From Desulfuromonas sp. TF (GTDB lineage: Bacteria; Desulfobacterota; Desulfuromonadia; Desulfuromonadales; ATBO01), in the NCBI RefSeq assembly GCF_000472285.1, contig NZ_KI421418.1:348618-392373 (forward strand): a stretch of 43,756 nucleotides of DNA, written 5' to 3'. How positions within the stretch are numbered: position 1 is the first letter of the stretch; each line of letters opens with the position of its first letter. Below are positions 5,324 to 35,574 of the stretch, piece by piece. The notes beneath the pieces were generated by a model. It was given only the letters and a program-made list of their open reading frames with translations, ran no database searches and was not told the origin of the DNA. The translations under genes were made by a program, and so were the position numbers.

Positions 5324-5410
5324 GTCCGTTCGGCAACCCGACCATCCCGTTACGGCTTTGGGATTCGTGGCTTTGGTACCCCCCTTGCGGGGTTTACCCT
5401 TTTCGTGGAC
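5324..5410 (-). promoter_or_regulatory. c-di-GMP-I (GEMM-I) riboswitch, proximal copy
   Basis: On the minus strand the order is AAGGGTAAACC, a GC-rich stem-loop, ACCAAAGCCAC, a second stem-loop and GTCGGGTTGCC, closed by GTCC/GGAC. This is the GEMM-I skeleton with its AAAGCC core. The base at the position that separates c-di-GMP from cGAMP binders (position 20 of the Vc2 numbering) reads G, which favours c-di-GMP. The joint before AAAGCC is ACC rather than ACGC, so this copy is slightly divergent and may be weaker. Confidence 0.75.
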
Positions 5411-5663: not shown

Positions 5664-5757
5664 TCTCTTGGCAACCCGGCTATCCGCCATAGCCTTTGCG
5701 AAGGCGGACCCGTGGCTTTGCGTCACCGGATTACTCCGGTTTTGCCTTTGTCTGAGA
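5664..5757 (-). promoter_or_regulatory. c-di-GMP-I (GEMM-I) riboswitch, distal copy
   Basis: The minus strand reads AAAGGCAAAACC, the GTAA-capped stem CCGGA/TCCGG, GACGCAAAGCCACGGGTC, a second stem-loop and AGCCGGGTTGCC, closed by TCTC/GAGA. This is an almost textbook GEMM-I aptamer, including the GACGCAAAGCC core and the receptor-like GCCGGG. The specificity base reads G (c-di-GMP rather than cGAMP). It begins about 35 nt after the predicted sigma-54 transcription start. Confidence 0.88.
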
Positions 5758-16505: not shown

Positions 16506-16600
16506 TCTCTTCGGCGGTCCGGCTATCCGCTGAAACCTTGGTGAAGGCGGACCCGTGACTTTGCGTCGCCGGATTGCTCCGGGTTTGCCCTTGTCGGAGA
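16506..16600 (-). promoter_or_regulatory. c-di-GMP-I (GEMM-I) riboswitch upstream of the FN3 gene
   Basis: The minus strand reads AAGGGCAAACC, the GCAA-capped stem CCGGA/TCCGG, GACGCAAAGTCACGGGTC, a second stem-loop and AGCCGGACCGCC, closed by TCTC/GAGA. It closely matches the distal aptamer at 5664-5757. The specificity base reads G (c-di-GMP). The T in AAAGTC and the altered 3' receptor (GGACCGCC) are small departures from the common form. Confidence 0.87.
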
Positions 16601-28742: not shown

Positions 28743-28957
28743 CTACCTTTTCGCCTATCTTACTTATATGCAGGCTGAAGAAAATCAGTCGCCCAAACCA
28801 CGCACGGCGCCGTGGGACTCCCTTTAATGGTTCATGTACCCACTCTATCGGGGAGAAGAGATTTTGCAATTCAACATGACACATTCATCGGGCTGGACAG
28901 ACCGATTATCTGCGATACGTTAGGGGGGTAATCCCCATACCGTGAGGAGGAATGATA

Positions 28958-29530
28958 ATGGCCGATCCGCGAGAGATCATCCGGTCGGGAGATGGATTGC
29001 TGGTGGTTGACGTCCAGAATGACTTTTGCCCTGGCGGCGCTCTGCCCATAGAAGATGGCGACAAGGTCATCCCGGTTCTGAACTACTGGCTCGCCGTCGC
29101 TCGCGACCGTAAGATTCCGATCTACGTTTCCCGCGACTGGCATCCGGCCGGGCACATCAGTTTCGAAAAAGAGGGGGGTAAATGGCCCCCCCATTGCCTG
29201 CAGGACACTCTGGGGGCGGAGTTTCATCCCAAACTCACCCTGGTCGGCGATGAGGTGATCATCACCAAGGGGGTGCGCTTCGATCAGGACCAGAATTCCG
29301 TCTTCGATCAGACCGGACTGGCGCATCGGCTCCGGCACGACGGGGTCGGAAGGCTGCTCGTCGGCGGGCTGGCCCAGGACGTCTGTGTCCTTGCCTCCGT
29401 CCTCGACGCCCGAAAGGAGGGGTTTGATGTATCCGTAATCAGTGGGGCCACCCGTCCGGTGAGTATCGAGGCGGGAGCGGAGGCGATGACGCAGATGAAA
29501 GAGGCCGGAGCGGAAATCCTGAACGAATGA
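28958..29530 (+). CDS. pncA: Nicotinamidase / isochorismatase-family hydrolase
   Basis: Hydrolyses nicotinamide to nicotinate for NAD salvage. The 190 residues have Asp in LLVVDVQNDFCPGGAL, the metal-site DWHPAGH, Lys in VIITKGV and the nucleophilic Cys in GLAQDVCVLASVLDA, the catalytic triad and metal ligands of pyrazinamidase/nicotinamidase. ATG 28958 lies 7 nt after GAGGAGG; ATG 28952 would be too close to it. The divergent prs gene also feeds NAD synthesis (PRPP), a plausible functional link. Confidence 0.92.
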   Translation: MADPREIIRSGDGLLVVDVQNDFCPGGALPIEDGDKVIPVLNYWLAVARDRKIPIYVSRDWHPAGHISFEKEGGKWPPHCLQDTLGAEFHPKLTLVGDEVIITKGVRFDQDQNSVFDQTGLAHRLRHDGVGRLLVGGLAQDVCVLASVLDARKEGFDVSVISGATRPVSIEAGAEAMTQMKEAGAEILNE

Positions 29531-29633: not shown

Positions 29634-32600
29634 TCATCTGCAGGCGACAAACCGGATCGTGCTGCGGGTTTCGCGCAGGGTCTCTTCCAGGGAGCGAAGG
29701 ACATAGTCTATGTCCTCGGCGATGTTGCCTGTTCCCAACGAGAAGCGTACCGCGCAGTGAGCCTGCTCGGCAGTCAGCCCCATGGCCAGCAGGGCAGGGG
29801 AGGGTTCGGGGTTTCCCGACTTGCACGCCGAACCTGACGAGAAAAAGACGCCGCGCCGGTCGAGGAACAGAACGAGAGACTCGCCCCGTATTTCCGGCAG
29901 GGTCATGTTCAGCGTATTCGGCAGACGCCCTTCGCCCGGCCCGTTGCGCCGGGCTCCCGGCAGAAGCTTGCGGATGCCGGCCTCCAGCCGGTCGCGCAGC
30001 TTCGAAACCCGCAGCATTTCGTCTTCGTTCAGCCGCCGCTGGGCCAGTTCGCAGGCTTTGCCGAATCCGACGATTCCGGCGACATTTTCCGTGCCGGAGC
30101 GCAGACCCCGCTCCTGACCGCCGCCGGTGATGAGGGGTTTCAGCTCCATGTCGCGCCTGACGTAAAGAGCGCCCACCCCCTTGGGACCGTGGATCTTGTG
30201 CGCCGACAAAGAGAGGAGGTCCACGCCGAGTTCTTCCACGTCGACGGGAATCTTCCCCAGGGCCTGCACCGCATCGGTGTGAAAGGTGACGCCCCTGCTC
30301 CGGGCGATGGCGGCGAGTTCGGCCACCGGCTGGATCGCGCCCGTTTCGTTGTTGGCCAGCATGATGCTCACCAGTGCCGTATCGGGCCGCAGAGCTTCGG
30401 CCAAAGACTCTGGTCGGACAATGCCGTCGCCGTCGACGGGCAGAACAGTGACCTCATAGCCATCCTGCTCCAGGGAGAGGCAGGTCCGGAGGATTGCCGG
30501 ATGCTCGATCGCCGAGGTGATCAGGTGACGGCCTTCGCGGTATGGGAGAAGCCCGCGGATGGCGAGGTTGTCCGCCTCGGATCCGCTGCCGGTGAAGACG
30601 ATGCGCCGGGCGGTGCAGTTGAGCATCTGCGCCACCCTGCGACGGGCCCCTTCCACAGGAGTGCGGCTGCGGTTGCCGAGGGTGTGAATGCTGGAAGGAT
30701 TGCCCCAGTCCTCCCGGAGGAAGGGGAGCATGGCTTCCAGAACCTCGGCATCGAGAGGGGTGGTGGCGTTATGGTCGAGATACACCCGTCTGCTCGGCCG
30801 CCCCTCGGCGGCAAGCTCTCTTTCCTGCTGGGTGTCGGATTCCGCTTCGTGGTCTATCGTGGCTGCTAATCCGCTTCCTTCCGCCCGGCTGACCTGGCAG
30901 AGGAGGGTCTTGTAGACGGGAAAACCTGAGATGGGATCGTAATTCTCCAGGTCGGTCAGCGCATTGACATTGGCTTCCCGCCACGCCTCTGGACCGAGGG
31001 GGCCGCCTCCTCCCATGGCCGCGTCGACGGCACCGCTAACGATATAGTCACTGAGCCTGGCCCTCAGGCGGACGCGGCCGCGCGGCGTCTCGACCCACAC
31101 CGGATCGCCATCGAGGATTCCCCGCGGTGCGGCGTCGTCCGGATGCATGATCACGTCGGGTTCCGGGTGTTTTTCGGAGAGTCCCCGGACGCCGTGATGC
31201 TGGCTGCGGAAGTCATAGGGGGTGCGGGTGCCTGAGTTGAAGACGAGGGGATAGCGCCTGGCCAGATCCGGCTGCGAGAGGGGGCCTTCTTTTGGTTCGG
31301 TATAGACCGGCAGGGGATCGTAGCCGTGCTCGGCGAGGATCGACGAGGCGATTTCAAATTTCCCGGAAGGGGTGTCGAACCCGGCTTTGCCGTCGGAGCG
31401 CAGCAGTCCCTTCTCCCATTTCTTGTACTGCATCATTGCCGTCGGCACCCGGACCGAGCCGCCGGCGCGGCGCACTTCGGCGGTCGTGAAGCCGGTTCCT
31501 TCAAGGGCCGTTTCGAGAATTTCCTCCTCGCTCTGGGGGAAGAGGTGTCCGTAGCCGAGACGACGGGCGAGTTCGGCGAGGATGAGAAAGTCGTTGCGCG
31601 CCTCCCCGATCGGCTCGACGAGTCTTTCTCGGATCTTGAACAGGGGGCCATAGCGCATGAAGGAAGTCGTTTCATACTGAGTGGTGGCGGGCAGGACCAG
31701 GTCGGCATAGGCTGAATCGGCGGTATGGTAGCGGTTGATGCAGACGGAGAAGTCGAGGGCCTCGAAAGTCCTTCGCCAAAGATCGGGATTCGGCCACGAA
31801 GTGATGATCGAGCCCCCGAGGTTGATCAGCGCCCGGATTCTGTAAGGCTCCCCTTCGAGAACCGAATCGGGGAGGGCGATGGCATGGGATTCGCCGCGAT
31901 AATGGCTGTAGACGGGAAAGCGGTCCCGGCCGAGGGCCTTGCGCATGTCCGGGTTGGCGATCAGGCGCCGGCGGTTCTGTGGGAAGGTGTTTTCCTTCAT
32001 CCGGAAAAGGAGGCCGCCGGGGACATCGAGCTGACCGGCCAGGGCCCAGAGGGTGAAAACGGCGCGAATCGCCTGCACTCCGCTGTCCGAATATTCGAGT
32101 CCGGTGTACATGATCGGGCAGGCGCCCCGGGCCGAGGCGATCCTGCGGGCCGTTCGGCGCACCGTCTCGGCGGGTACGCCGGTGATCCCTTCGACGATCT
32201 CCGGGCGGTAATGCTGAACCAGATTCTTCAGTTCGGCAAAGCCGACGGTCCAGTGATCGACGAAATCGTCATCGTAAAGCTCCTCTTCGAGGAGGACCTG
32301 GATCATCCCAAGGGCGAGGGCGCCGTCGGAGCCGGGTCGAACGCCGATCCATTCGGCCTTCGCTTCTCGAGCCGTGCCATTTCTTCGGGGGTCGATGGCA
32401 ATAACCTCGGCGCCCCGCCGCCGGGCTCTCAGGATCTGCTCGTGCGCCAGAGGGGGAGAGTCGGTTGCCGGGTTGGCGCCCCAGATCACGATCAGTTCGG
32501 CCTGCTCGATATCGGTATCCATGGTGACGTACAGCTCTCCCATGGTGACGTGCGGAGCGATCATGGCGAAAGAGACGTAGCAGAGGGCGCCAACTCCGAG

Positions 32601-33032
32601 GGTGTTCGGCGATCCGAAGGGGAAGAGGACGCTGGAGGCGGAGGAGACGGCGACGCCCGCCGGCTGGAAGAGGTCGCACATGGCCATATCGAAGCTGCCG
32701 CGGCCGGTGTAGATGGCCGCCGCTTCCGGGCCGGACTCTTTCTTGATCGACAGCAGTTTATCCGTAAGGAGGTCGTAGGCCTCATCCCAGGAGATGCGTT
32801 CGAACTCCCAGGTCCCCTTGGGCCCGCGGCGGCGCAGGGGAAATTTCAACCGGTCGGGATCATGGACGATCTGCGGCGATGCCAGGCCGATCCGGCACAT
32901 GACGCCGAGAGGATGGTCCGGCAACGGCTCCACCGCTTCCAGCCTCCCGTCGCGAAGGCGGGCGCGCACCCAGCATCCCGCCGGACAGATGCCGCAGAGA
33001 CCATCGCGTTCCTCCACCGTGGCCTGCTTCAT
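29634..33032 (-). CDS. Molybdopterin oxidoreductase-cysteine desulfurase fusion (probable metallopterin-dependent ergothioneine synthase)
   Basis: The 1132-aa fusion has an N-terminal DMSO-reductase-family module (1-715). Cluster cysteines are 13, 16, 20 and 46 (CGICPAGC, GVMCRIG) and Cys151 is the likely Mo/W ligand (GALCYVS). After a linker (about 716-748) comes a complete NifS-type desulfurase: YLDHNATTPLDAEV, EHPAI, FHTDAVQ, PLP-Lys946 in SAHKIHGP and catalytic Cys1070 in SSGSACKSG. This layout matches the enzyme reported from Caldithrix abyssi, which moves sulfur from cysteine to trimethylhistidine. The start overlaps the egtD stop (TGATG) and egtD makes trimethylhistidine, so function is well supported by context. 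ATG 33032 is chosen over a longer reading that overlaps egtD. Confidence 0.9.
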   Translation of the reverse strand: MKQATVEERDGLCGICPAGCWVRARLRDGRLEAVEPLPDHPLGVMCRIGLASPQIVHDPDRLKFPLRRRGPKGTWEFERISWDEAYDLLTDKLLSIKKESGPEAAAIYTGRGSFDMAMCDLFQPAGVAVSSASSVLFPFGSPNTLGVGALCYVSFAMIAPHVTMGELYVTMDTDIEQAELIVIWGANPATDSPPLAHEQILRARRRGAEVIAIDPRRNGTAREAKAEWIGVRPGSDGALALGMIQVLLEEELYDDDFVDHWTVGFAELKNLVQHYRPEIVEGITGVPAETVRRTARRIASARGACPIMYTGLEYSDSGVQAIRAVFTLWALAGQLDVPGGLLFRMKENTFPQNRRRLIANPDMRKALGRDRFPVYSHYRGESHAIALPDSVLEGEPYRIRALINLGGSIITSWPNPDLWRRTFEALDFSVCINRYHTADSAYADLVLPATTQYETTSFMRYGPLFKIRERLVEPIGEARNDFLILAELARRLGYGHLFPQSEEEILETALEGTGFTTAEVRRAGGSVRVPTAMMQYKKWEKGLLRSDGKAGFDTPSGKFEIASSILAEHGYDPLPVYTEPKEGPLSQPDLARRYPLVFNSGTRTPYDFRSQHHGVRGLSEKHPEPDVIMHPDDAAPRGILDGDPVWVETPRGRVRLRARLSDYIVSGAVDAAMGGGGPLGPEAWREANVNALTDLENYDPISGFPVYKTLLCQVSRAEGSGLAATIDHEAESDTQQERELAAEGRPSRRVYLDHNATTPLDAEVLEAMLPFLREDWGNPSSIHTLGNRSRTPVEGARRRVAQMLNCTARRIVFTGSGSEADNLAIRGLLPYREGRHLITSAIEHPAILRTCLSLEQDGYEVTVLPVDGDGIVRPESLAEALRPDTALVSIMLANNETGAIQPVAELAAIARSRGVTFHTDAVQALGKIPVDVEELGVDLLSLSAHKIHGPKGVGALYVRRDMELKPLITGGGQERGLRSGTENVAGIVGFGKACELAQRRLNEDEMLRVSKLRDRLEAGIRKLLPGARRNGPGEGRLPNTLNMTLPEIRGESLVLFLDRRGVFFSSGSACKSGNPEPSPALLAMGLTAEQAHCAVRFSLGTGNIAEDIDYVLRSLEETLRETRSTIRFVACR

Positions 33033-34150
33033 CACGAACTGCCTTTCAATGCTTCGCCGCTTCTTTTGGGAAGGGTTTTTTCCAGTAGCAGCAAGGCAAA
33101 CCACTTCTGTTCGTCGGTGAAGACACGCCGGGCCCGGAAGCCGAGCATTCCCAAACTTGGCAGAAGGGTCTCGATGCTGAATTTACGGCTGATTTCGGTC
33201 AGGATCTCTTCTCCGGCCTCAATTTTGAAAGAACGCTGCAGGATGGGAAGGTCGATGGTCTGGGACCTCTTGAACCGGGCATGGATTTCGATCTGCTCGA
33301 GCTCGCTGTTGAAGCGGGCCACATGCTCAACCCCTGAGATGTCGATATCGCTTTCCAGTTCCCGATTCATGCGCACGAAGAGGTTGCGGGTAAATTCATC
33401 GCTGATTCCGGCGGCGTCGTTATAGGCCGCTTCCAGAAGTTCCGGATCTTTCAGGAGGTCAACGCCCAGGAGGAAATGGTCCCCTGGATCCAGATGATCA
33501 GCTACCCGGTTGAAAAATTCCATGGATTCCTTCCGGCTCATGTTGCCGATGGTGCTGCCCAGGAAGATGACCATGATGGGAGAGGCGACGTCGAAGACCG
33601 GGAAGGCTTCCTGGTACGTTCCATGGATGCCGATGACCTGAACGCCGGGATGGCGTCGATTGATGTTGCGGATTGCTCCTCGCAGGGCGCTTTCGCTGAC
33701 GTCGATGGGAACGTAACAGAGCGCCGGATTCTGTTTCATGTAAGCCGATAGCAGATAGTCCGTCTTCACCGAATATCCGGAACCGAATTCAACCAGGGTC
33801 GAAGGCCCGGTCATCCTGCTGATCTCGGTGGAGTGACGGGCCAGAATGGATGCTTCGGTGCGGGTGAGATAGTATTCGGGCTGCACAGTGATCTGCTCAT
33901 ACAGCCTGCTTCCGCGTTCATCATAGAGAAATCGGCAGTCGAGTCGGCGTGGCTGACGGTCGAGGCCGGCGGCGACTGAAGAGGCGAAATCCAGGACGGG
34001 GTCAGATCGGTTCGAGCCTGCTTTCAGGAGCACGCTGCGGGTCCTTCTTTCCAGGGCGCTCAGAAATCCCCGGGGCAGTTCGTTCTCCCGGTTTATCAGG
34101 TCGGAGAGCAAGAGTAGACTCCTTTCTCGGGGGAGTTGGAAATTCGTCAT
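33032..34150 (-). CDS. egtD: L-histidine N-alpha-methyltransferase
   Basis: SAM-dependent trimethylation of histidine to hercynine, first step of ergothioneine synthesis. The 372 residues include an N-terminal extension of about 45 aa. Motifs: RLYEQITVQPEYYLTRTEASIL (histidine-binding Tyr region), SAM loop LVEFGSGYSVKTDYLL, PIDVSESAL, MVIFLGSTIGN, GVDLLKD and AYNDAAGISDEFTRNL, then ILTEISRKF, which has the Glu and Ser of the imidazole pocket. The common FN of the substrate loop reads FT here, a change worth testing. Translation is coupled to the downstream fusion gene. No canonical EgtB or EanB is in the window. Confidence 0.9.
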   Translation of the reverse strand: MTNFQLPRERSLLLLSDLINRENELPRGFLSALERRTRSVLLKAGSNRSDPVLDFASSVAAGLDRQPRRLDCRFLYDERGSRLYEQITVQPEYYLTRTEASILARHSTEISRMTGPSTLVEFGSGYSVKTDYLLSAYMKQNPALCYVPIDVSESALRGAIRNINRRHPGVQVIGIHGTYQEAFPVFDVASPIMVIFLGSTIGNMSRKESMEFFNRVADHLDPGDHFLLGVDLLKDPELLEAAYNDAAGISDEFTRNLFVRMNRELESDIDISGVEHVARFNSELEQIEIHARFKRSQTIDLPILQRSFKIEAGEEILTEISRKFSIETLLPSLGMLGFRARRVFTDEQKWFALLLLEKTLPKRSGEALKGSS

Positions 34151-34194
34151 TCTTCTGAATAGGATTGAATATGAATCAGTTTAAGGTCTGACCG

Positions 34195-34226
34195 CCCCAT
34201 GTCAAGCCGGTTCAAGGGACATGGGG
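34195..34226. promoter_or_regulatory. Inverted repeat in the egtD / hydrolase-OsmC divergent region
   Basis: CCCCATGTC and GACATGGGG are a perfect 9-bp inverted repeat with a 14-nt spacer. It lies 45 nt upstream of egtD and may be a regulator site or a hairpin in a leader. Confidence 0.4.
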
Positions 34227-34341: not shown

Positions 34342-35574
34342 ATGAAACAGAAAAAGATTACCTTCACCAATGCGGAGGGTACGGAGCTTGTCGGTCTTCT
34401 TGATCTGCCGGAGGACGAAAAGCCGGTCGCCTATGCTCTCTTTGCACACTGTTTCACCTGTACCAAGAATCTAGCCGCAGCCGCAAATATCTGCAGAGCG
34501 CTTTCCCGAAGGCGTATTGCCGTCCTGCGGTTTGATTTCACCGGAATCGGGGAAAGCGAAGGGGAGTTCGCGGACACGACTTTTTCAACCAATATCAGCG
34601 ATCTCATCGAAGCCTCGCGCTTTCTGGAGAAGGAGTACGGGGCGCCTCGCATTCTTATCGGTCATTCCCTTGGCGGTACGGCGGCTCTGATGGCGGCTGA
34701 CCGGATTTCTTCGGTATCGGCCATAGCCACCATTGCAGCTCCCTGTCATCCACGGCATATAGGGAGACTGCTGAAGGACTCCCGGGAAGAGATCGAGCGC
34801 TCCGGCAAGGCCACCGTCAGGCTTGCCGGACGGGATTTCACCATTCGCAGGGAGTTCCTGGAGGATCTGGAAAAACAGGACCCCGTGGAGAGAATTGCCC
34901 GTCTCGGAGCGGCGCTTATGGTCATGCACTCGCCTCGAGATCGAATCGTTGGAATCGACAACGCCGCCGACATCTACAGAGCGGCCAGGCACCCGAAGAA
35001 TTTCATCTCCCTCGACCCGGCGGACCACCTTCTTTCGCGCCCGGCGGATTCACGTTATGCCGGCCACATGATCGCCTCCTGGGCCGAACGCTATCTCGAG
35101 GCCGCCGAAGAAACCGAAGCCTTGCCGGAGATGATCGACAACCGGGTGACCTCGCGCACCGGCAGGGAGGGATTCCGCACCGACCTTTTCGCCAACGGCT
35201 TTGCCCTGGTTTCCGACGAACCGGAATCCTATGGGGGCAGCGGGCAGGGACCTTCACCCTACGACCTGCTGCAGGCCGCCCTCGGCGCCTGCACAGGGAT
35301 GACCGTGCAGATGTACGCCCGCCGTAAAGAATGGCCTCTTGAGGAGGCGGTGGTCCGTCTTCGCCATGAAAAAATTCATGCCGATGATTGCGTTCACTGC
35401 GAGGAGAAGGGGCGCAGGATAGACCGATTCGAGCGGGAGCTCGAACTGAAGGGACCCCTGAAAGAGGAGCAGCGCCGGCGCCTGCTCGAGATTGCCGAGA
35501 AATGTCCGGTTCACCGCACCCTGAACTCCGAGGTGCTGATCGAGACCCGGCTGCGGAGGGAGGAAGAAGACTAA
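34342..35574 (+). CDS. Alpha/beta hydrolase-OsmC fusion protein
   Basis: The 410-aa protein joins two redox/stress domains. Alpha/beta hydrolase (about 1-255): HCFTCTKN oxyanion region, nucleophile Ser109 in GHSLGG, DxR acid region SPRDRIVGID and His in PADHLLS. OsmC/Ohr-like domain (about 270-405): Cys317 in LGACTGMTVQMYA and Cys388 in EKCPVHRTL, the pair that reduces organic peroxides, plus CVHC (near 353). Such bifunctional proteins are known as a family; their substrate is not. AAAGGAGG lies 6 nt before the ATG. It is divergent from egtD. Confidence 0.92.
   Translation: MKQKKITFTNAEGTELVGLLDLPEDEKPVAYALFAHCFTCTKNLAAAANICRALSRRRIAVLRFDFTGIGESEGEFADTTFSTNISDLIEASRFLEKEYGAPRILIGHSLGGTAALMAADRISSVSAIATIAAPCHPRHIGRLLKDSREEIERSGKATVRLAGRDFTIRREFLEDLEKQDPVERIARLGAALMVMHSPRDRIVGIDNAADIYRAARHPKNFISLDPADHLLSRPADSRYAGHMIASWAERYLEAAEETEALPEMIDNRVTSRTGREGFRTDLFANGFALVSDEPESYGGSGQGPSPYDLLQAALGACTGMTVQMYARRKEWPLEEAVVRLRHEKIHADDCVHCEEKGRRIDRFERELELKGPLKEEQRRRLLEIAEKCPVHRTLNSEVLIETRLRREEED

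Follow-up and report, generated by a model that had tools for sequence, protein, structure and literature searches.

The subject of this analysis is a pair of adjacent genes on the reverse strand of a 43,756-nucleotide stretch of Desulfuromonas sp. TF (contig NZ_KI421418.1, positions 348,618 to 392,373; hereafter the window): egtD and, directly downstream of it, a gene for a molybdenum- or tungsten-dependent (Mo/W) enzyme fused to a cysteine desulfurase. We consider it very probable, on grounds of homology, that the pair is a two-gene operon of the metallopterin-dependent ergothioneine synthase (MES) type, which would convert histidine via hercynine into ergothioneine without O2. This is the best reading because the residues essential in the MES of Caldithrix abyssi (CaMES; Beliaeva and Seebeck, 2022; PMC9516567) are conserved in the fusion and its N-terminal module (N-module) groups with MES; an earlier, sequence-only reading of the window, which had proposed the same O2-independent step from hercynine to ergothioneine, finds support in both. 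The operon itself appears sound and ordinary. The interest lies in its O2-capable host, in genomes with both an O2-dependent and the O2-independent route, and above all in the sister pairs, that is, stand-alone relatives of the N-module encoded next to a methyltransferase.

Conserved features of the fusion and of EgtD

The fusion resembles CaMES in architecture, length, essential residues and linkage to egtD, and is set apart from it by the order egtD-MES with overlapping stop and start codons. The comparison was made through the protein of a metagenome-assembled genome (MAG) named Caldithrix abyssi HyVt-577 (L119), which, read from its only methionine near the start, has 1136 residues, the published length of CaMES, and carries Cys14, Cys17, Cys21, Cys48, Cys153, Lys952, Cys1074, Cys1097 and Cys1135 at the CaMES numbers. 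The window fusion is 63.0% identical to it (711 identities in 1129 columns) and keeps nine of these nine residues, an alignment that bears out the likeness to the C. abyssi enzyme proposed in the sequence-only reading. That reading had placed Cys13, Cys16, Cys20, Cys46, Cys151, Lys946 and Cys1070 correctly and had missed Cys1131 and Cys1093. According to the published work, CaMES loses its activity when Lys952, Cys1074, Cys1135 or Cys153 is mutated (the C153S variant makes nearly no ergothioneine), Cys1135 is essential and Cys1097 plays a minor role, sulfur transfer is intramolecular, the reaction is reversible, and four members of the family formed ergothioneine in E. coli (PMC9516567). Judged by its sequence, the window fusion belongs to the known MES family, and every residue proven essential in CaMES is conserved in it.

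Conservation (Table 1) was counted in an alignment of 90 rows, the window and 89 other non-duplicate fusions; the duplicates L138 and L149 and the truncated or broken loci L057, L073, L122, L129, L135 and L137 were left out. Cys1093, the equivalent of CaMES Cys1097, is present in 84 of the 90 rows. For the C-terminal module, the best profile is NifS with 490.7 bits, under its equivalog cut-off of 530.75. The idea that the fusion is peculiar to this window was rejected: a contig scan gave 389 matching stretches, 365 of which were N-module relatives (fusions or not), and the best 80 were taken. Selenocysteine as the metal ligand was rejected as well, cysteine standing in all 90 MES rows and in the aligned stand-alone rows shown. 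In-frame stops were reported in three stand-alone matches (L034, L041, L043) and in one fusion (L018). The C-terminus does not read CR in six of the 89 other fusions, two of which, L072 and L136, were inspected. At L072 (fusion L018) the stop lies 12 codons short of the usual end, with FVPCR beyond it. An apparent extra C-terminal domain in L136 was discarded, since its frame crosses a run of N into downstream sequence. One Scalindua assembly (JAIQZR) has two MES genes (L118, L124) on separate contigs.

The product of egtD passed the EgtD profile TIGR03438 (322.8 bits against an equivalog cut-off of 290.9) and contains the Methyltransf_33 domain (PF10017, 2e-98), of which it is the single match in the 4.4 Mb host genome. 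It matches the M. smegmatis EgtD structures at 2.1e-64 and keeps Y39, Y56, N166, Y206, E282 and S284, which we take to be the substrate residues of EgtD.

From homology to CaMES, we infer all steps of the mechanism as follows. EgtD would trimethylate histidine to hercynine (trimethylhistidine, TMH) in an S-adenosylmethionine (SAM)-dependent reaction, and the desulfurase half of the fusion would withdraw sulfur from cysteine with the aid of pyridoxal phosphate (PLP) on Lys946 and hold it as a persulfide on Cys1070. The C-terminal Cys1131 would relay the sulfur, within one polypeptide, to a Mo or W bis-molybdopterin guanine dinucleotide (bis-MGD) centre bound by Cys151 of the N-terminal half, and the metal-sulfido centre would deliver it onto C2 of the hercynine ring, with release of ergothioneine and without use of O2. 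The metal-sulfido mechanism is a tentative proposal of the MES authors (PMC9516567).

Gene pairing, tree position and oxygen

The pairing of the fusion with egtD is real and already known, and the gene order is variable. The sequence-only reading had seen its new value in this tight pairing, a claim that could not be upheld: a histidine methyltransferase co-encoded with the fusion has been published for 55 genomes (PMC9516567), and the pairing is the rule among the fusions collected here. The fetched stretches of 69 of the 89 other non-duplicate fusions contain egtD, which lies upstream on the same strand in 39 cases, downstream on the same strand in 28, and upstream on the opposite strand in two. 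On the other 20 stretches egtD was absent, contig ends explaining some of the cases, and a genome-wide check of 14 of them revealed EgtD elsewhere in 13. Within a sample of 395 genomes of the host phylum (E ≤ 1e-150), full fusions occur in 14 genomes and a fragment in one, and in each of the 14 non-host genomes among these 15 the fetched stretch includes egtD.

A tree of 112 rows unites the fusions, that of the window among them, in a single clade (Shimodaira-Hasegawa-like approximate likelihood ratio test, SH-aLRT, 97), whose sister is a clade of stand-alone proteins, other stand-alone proteins lying outside; the 103 MES and stand-alone rows together are split from FdhH, FdhF, PsrA/PhsA, acetylene hydratase and five paralogues of the host (99). 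A second tree of 54 rows gave the following bootstrap/SH-aLRT values: 100/99 for MES plus the sister clade, 100/100 for the sister clade, 89/96 for the MES clade with the window and the Caldithrix enzyme inside it (a bootstrap just below the 95 mark), and 100/100 for MES, the sister clade and the deeper stand-alone proteins, apart from the four FdhH/FdhF and PsrA/PhsA reference chains. Thus, the grouping with formate dehydrogenases or polysulfide reductases that the sequence-only reading had named as contrary to its proposal was not obtained, and the N-module lay with MES in both trees. The end branch of acetylene hydratase measures 7.05 changes per column in the 112-row tree and 3.51 in the 54-row tree, and its placement is not settled.

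Acetylene hydratase (2e7z, 238 bits) is nevertheless the top PDB match of the N-module, followed by 2vpw (206) and 7qv7 (169), and its cysteine is aligned with the MES metal ligand, at an identity of 31%. This resemblance speaks for the supposition, to which we give only the slightest chance, that the N-module is a hydratase of the acetylene hydratase type and its link with egtD is incidental. Against it, the Asp that follows the second cluster cysteine of the hydratase is aligned to Pro17 of the fusion; Cys151 and Lys946 are kept in 90 of the 90 aligned fusions, and egtD is often linked to the fusion, even where the gene order is inverted. The sequence-only reading had called the N-module acetylene-hydratase-like, which holds for the best score and is unsure as to the place in the tree. 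It had also pointed to the exchange of Asp for Pro17; the alignment agrees, but as evidence of a different reaction the exchange is weak, and Pro17 as a signature of a new reaction was rejected, since position 17 in the MES family is Pro in 86 of the 90 rows, Ser in two, Ala in one and a gap in one. A reaction running mainly in reverse, in which the fusion would remove or exchange the sulfur of ergothioneine that the cell had imported or synthesised before, the desulfurase charging the metal centre, has likewise a very small probability in our view: exchange of sulfur between ergothioneine and TMH by the K952A variant of CaMES is indeed reversible, but the forward reaction receives its substrate through the adjoining egtD, and the four producers of ergothioneine in E. 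coli were the wild-type CaMES and three homologues (PMC9516567).

Several observations weigh against the proposed O2-free ergothioneine operon. A Spirochaetia MAG with MES (L146) has no EgtD match genome-wide. In a close relative at L057 (genome G012, 3.96 Mb contig), the two pieces of which are 85 and 82% identical to the window fusion, the MES frame is disrupted by a deletion of, judged by eye, about 140 bases, with egtD intact; this suggests that the MES gene can be lost, unless it is an assembly error. Furthermore, the host possesses two terminal oxidase gene sets, one of the caa3 type (COX1, COX2 with cytochrome c, COX3) and one of the cbb3 type (COX1, FixO), unlike the published strict anaerobes with MES, homologues of which are, according to the abstract, exclusive to anaerobic species (PMC9516567).

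A COX1-family match over the cut-off was obtained in 10 of the 19 genomes of the host phylum with a MES gene or its remnant, the further oxidase subunits having been checked in the host only. The COX1 family also includes nitric oxide reductases. The occurrence of the MES operon in a host with two terminal oxidase gene sets argues against taking the pathway to indicate a strict anaerobe. On sequence evidence, MES is the only route of ergothioneine C-S bond formation found in the host, because EgtB has no match in its genome at E ≤ 0.001; EanB was not searched for. The EgtB/Egt1 sulfoxide synthase route has the precursor hercynine and the product in common with MES, whereas its protein is unrelated and depends on O2 and iron; the EanB rhodanese route, like MES, brings sulfur to hercynine without O2, with an unrelated, rhodanese-like protein (PMC9516567).

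A canonical EgtB over the cut-off accompanies MES in eight of 71 genomes tested (6/21 and 2/50; in the set of 21, which includes G012 with its broken MES, 14 genomes had been picked for a non-adjacent egtD or an unclear case). Six of the eight are MAGs or bins, for which misbinning is possible. The other two are isolates, Anaeromyxobacter terrae SG22 (L112/L159/L170) and Thiorhodococcus minor DSM 11518 (L125/L155/L171), in which the EgtB and EgtD genes lie on the same strand, 71 and 140 bases apart, respectively, and not on the MES stretch. The published search would miss such genomes, because its starting set consisted of genomes that lack EgtB or EanB candidates (PMC9516567). The O2-capable host and the genomes with both MES and EgtB go beyond the published account of MES, as does the stand-alone sister clade described below, and the two isolates provide a testable case in which two sulfur steps, one aerobic and one anaerobic, would draw on a single hercynine pool.

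Stand-alone relatives and their methyltransferase partners

The MES N-module may be one of a larger group of Mo/W enzymes that attach sulfur to the imidazole ring of histidine. In its sister clade, designated type A, the enzyme and an OvoM-like N-methyltransferase would make 5-thiohistidine and ovothiol, or a close relative of it, without O2, as an ovothiol counterpart of the MES route to ergothioneine; a more distant Mo/W enzyme, type B, encoded beside a relative of this methyltransferase, may do the same, and MES would then be the older enzyme after fusion to a sulfur source of its own and a change of substrate to hercynine. We put this forward tentatively, with somewhat less than even confidence; sulfur insertion, ring site and sulfur donor in type A are what we infer from homology and gene pairing. 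If this is true, ovothiol biosynthesis would gain a route that needs no O2, the sulfoxide synthase OvoA, which uses O2, being the only one that appears in the available parts of two accounts (PMC12631010, PMC10903977), and the making of C-S bonds by Mo/W enzymes would be a family trait and not a single oddity. Among the matches listed for the ovothiol, OvoM and OvsM literature, no title or abstract opening names a molybdenum route to ovothiol, which is no proof that this reading is unpublished.

In the 395-genome sample, 12 genomes encode a total of 13 stand-alone N-module relatives (42-50% identity), and EgtD is absent from all 12 (0/12). Six of the 13 constitute type A (motif CGxCFHSPGC), with no fused desulfurase, and at all six loci the next gene upstream on the same strand encodes a methyltransferase of 313-318 residues. 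In the order to which genome G438 belongs (194 genomes), we found 18 type A proteins, 67-100% identical to that of L050, and three fusions; the methyltransferase is upstream of 17 of the 18. Since two of the 18 were already among the first six, the arrangement is present in 21 of 22 distinct type A genomes (e.g., L050:9022-12194), the sole exception being L236/G617, where none of the genes up to about 8 kb away from the stand-alone enzyme encodes a methyltransferase. With a profile of this methyltransferase, six of the 395 genomes score above 500 bits, and these are precisely the six that carry type A; a further 38 genomes score 302-355 bits. The OvoA sulfoxide synthase domain was over its cut-off in none of the 22 type A genomes (the match in G438, 84 bits, is below it). 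MES and type A have 218 columns in common at ≥ 90% conservation and differ in 41 such columns, among which 150, 153, 156-158 and 161 are near the metal ligand; such differences would be expected for one chemistry with different substrates, or for a different chemistry.

The best NCBIfam family of three type A partners is TIGR04345, the OvoA C-terminal 4-mercaptohistidine N1-methyltransferase, with 111.8, 100.3 and 88.7 bits, all below its cut-off of 170, the next family reaching at most 40.8 bits. For the L050 partner, the best PDB sequences are the N-methyltransferases OvsM (acting on 5-selenohistidine), OvoA and OvoM (5-thiohistidine). Its predicted fold (20 rows; mean predicted local distance difference test score, pLDDT, 83) gave OvoA, OvsM and OvoM chains as the first 11 matches (E 1.7e-18 to 5.2e-16), then RlmA (8.2e-11); the Z scores to OvoM/OvoA/OvsM are 23.1-24.1 (3.2-3.4 Å over 228-235 residues), followed by RlmA at 17.6 and CARNMT1 at 17.5, fold likeness alone proving no function. 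Thirty positions are common to at least 18 of the 20 partners, OvsM and OvoA, including Asn205, Trp249, Ile293, Arg294 and Thr296, which we take to lie outside the SAM site. The OvoA C-terminal domain, OvoM and OvsM are thus the nearest relatives of the type A partner by profile, sequence and fold, from which it differs by its sub-cut-off scores and by an extra N-terminal zinc ribbon with four invariant cysteines, weakly Trm112-like. It is paired with a Mo/W enzyme, whereas the pairing in OvoA is with an iron sulfoxide synthase.

Type B (motif CRLCSSCC) is a Mo/W enzyme of about 685 residues encoded directly downstream of the weaker-match methyltransferase at 11 of 19 loci (e.g., L224:5432-8437), drawn from the 38 genomes with 302-355-bit matches; two of the 11 are cut or split, and eight of the 19 loci have no type B gene. 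The eight aligned proteins show the GSPN...C ligand stretch as in MES, and type B is 26-34% identical to MES; in the 54-row tree it forms a separate clade, not the sister of type A. TIGR04345 was the best family, below its cut-off, for five of five methyltransferases tested from the 19 loci, three of them beside type B. The OvoA sulfoxide synthase domain is present in one of seven type B genomes tested, which argues against type B as a mere substitute for OvoA there.

To another possibility, that the type A enzyme hydroxylates or oxidises an N-methyl-imidazole produced by its partner and forms no C-S bond, we also assign a chance not quite even. A scan of six type A loci revealed no desulfurase-like gene, which is the chief weakness of the ovothiol reading and agrees with an oxidative reaction. 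CARNMT1, which with RlmA is next closest to the predicted fold of the partner, methylates an unthiolated imidazole. On the other hand, the OvoM-type relatives act, according to the titles of their PDB entries, on 5-thio- or 5-selenohistidine and stand 6 Z units above CARNMT1, and the closest known enzyme in the trees is the sulfur-inserting MES. The majority of enzymes in the family catalyse C-O bond formation (PMC9516567), which again suits oxidation.

As a separate observation, M19 dipeptidase genes occur near the OvoM-like methyltransferase at L221 and L049 (by Pfam) and at L235 and L056 (by similarity), and at L221 and L235 a B12-binding radical SAM gene is also near it.

Layout of the two-gene unit and its surroundings

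The egtD and fusion genes (Table 1) appear to be a unit of two genes because they are flanked by a divergent and a convergent gene. The sequence agrees with the overlap of the EgtD stop and the fusion start, described in the sequence-only reading, at 33034-33030. The hydrolase-OsmC neighbour was rejected as a part of the system, since the fetched MES loci contain no homologue of it at E 1e-20, and so was a conserved third gene: the egtD cluster spans 59 loci and the next widest one 12 loci, at scattered positions.

Table 1. Features of the predicted ergothioneine operon and of its flanks, in window positions
Feature	Position	Strand	Basis or remark
egtD, predicted histidine N-alpha-trimethyltransferase, 372 aa, ATG start	33032..34150	-	open reading frame and profiles
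MES-type fusion (metallopterin-dependent ergothioneine synthase by homology), 1132 aa	29634..33032	-	ATG at 33032, stop at 29634
TGATG, stop of egtD and start of fusion, one base common	33030..33034	-	sequence
GAAAGG, possible ribosome-binding site of fusion, 9 nt before ATG	33042..33047	-	sequence; function inferred
N-terminal Mo/W bis-MGD module, residues 1-720	30873..33032	-	PF00384 (Molybdopterin, 2.3e-40), PF01568
C-terminal NifS/IscS-like cysteine desulfurase module, residues 748-1132	29637..30791	-	PF00266 (Aminotran_5, 4.3e-81)
Four [4Fe-4S] cysteines, Cys13, 16, 20, 46 (CaMES 14/17/21/48)	32895..32996	-	each in 89/90 rows, one gap
Cys151 codon, predicted metal ligand (CaMES Cys153)	32580..32582	-	90/90 rows
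Lys946 codon, predicted PLP lysine (CaMES Lys952)	30195..30197	-	90/90 rows
Cys1070 codon, predicted persulfide cysteine (CaMES Cys1074)	29823..29825	-	88/90 rows, two gaps
Cys1131 codon, penultimate residue, predicted relay cysteine (CaMES Cys1135)	29640..29642	-	85/90 rows, four gaps, one Leu
Promoter-like site before egtD	34178..34205	-	1 found against 1.0 expected by chance; alone no evidence
Alpha/beta hydrolase-OsmC domain fusion gene, divergent from egtD	34342-35574	+	domain search
Isochorismatase-fold gene, convergent with the MES fusion gene	28952-29530	+	domain search

Elsewhere in the window, three cyclic di-GMP-I (c-di-GMP-I) riboswitch aptamers score above the gathering score, at 5329-5408, 5666-5755 and 16509-16598 (reverse strand).

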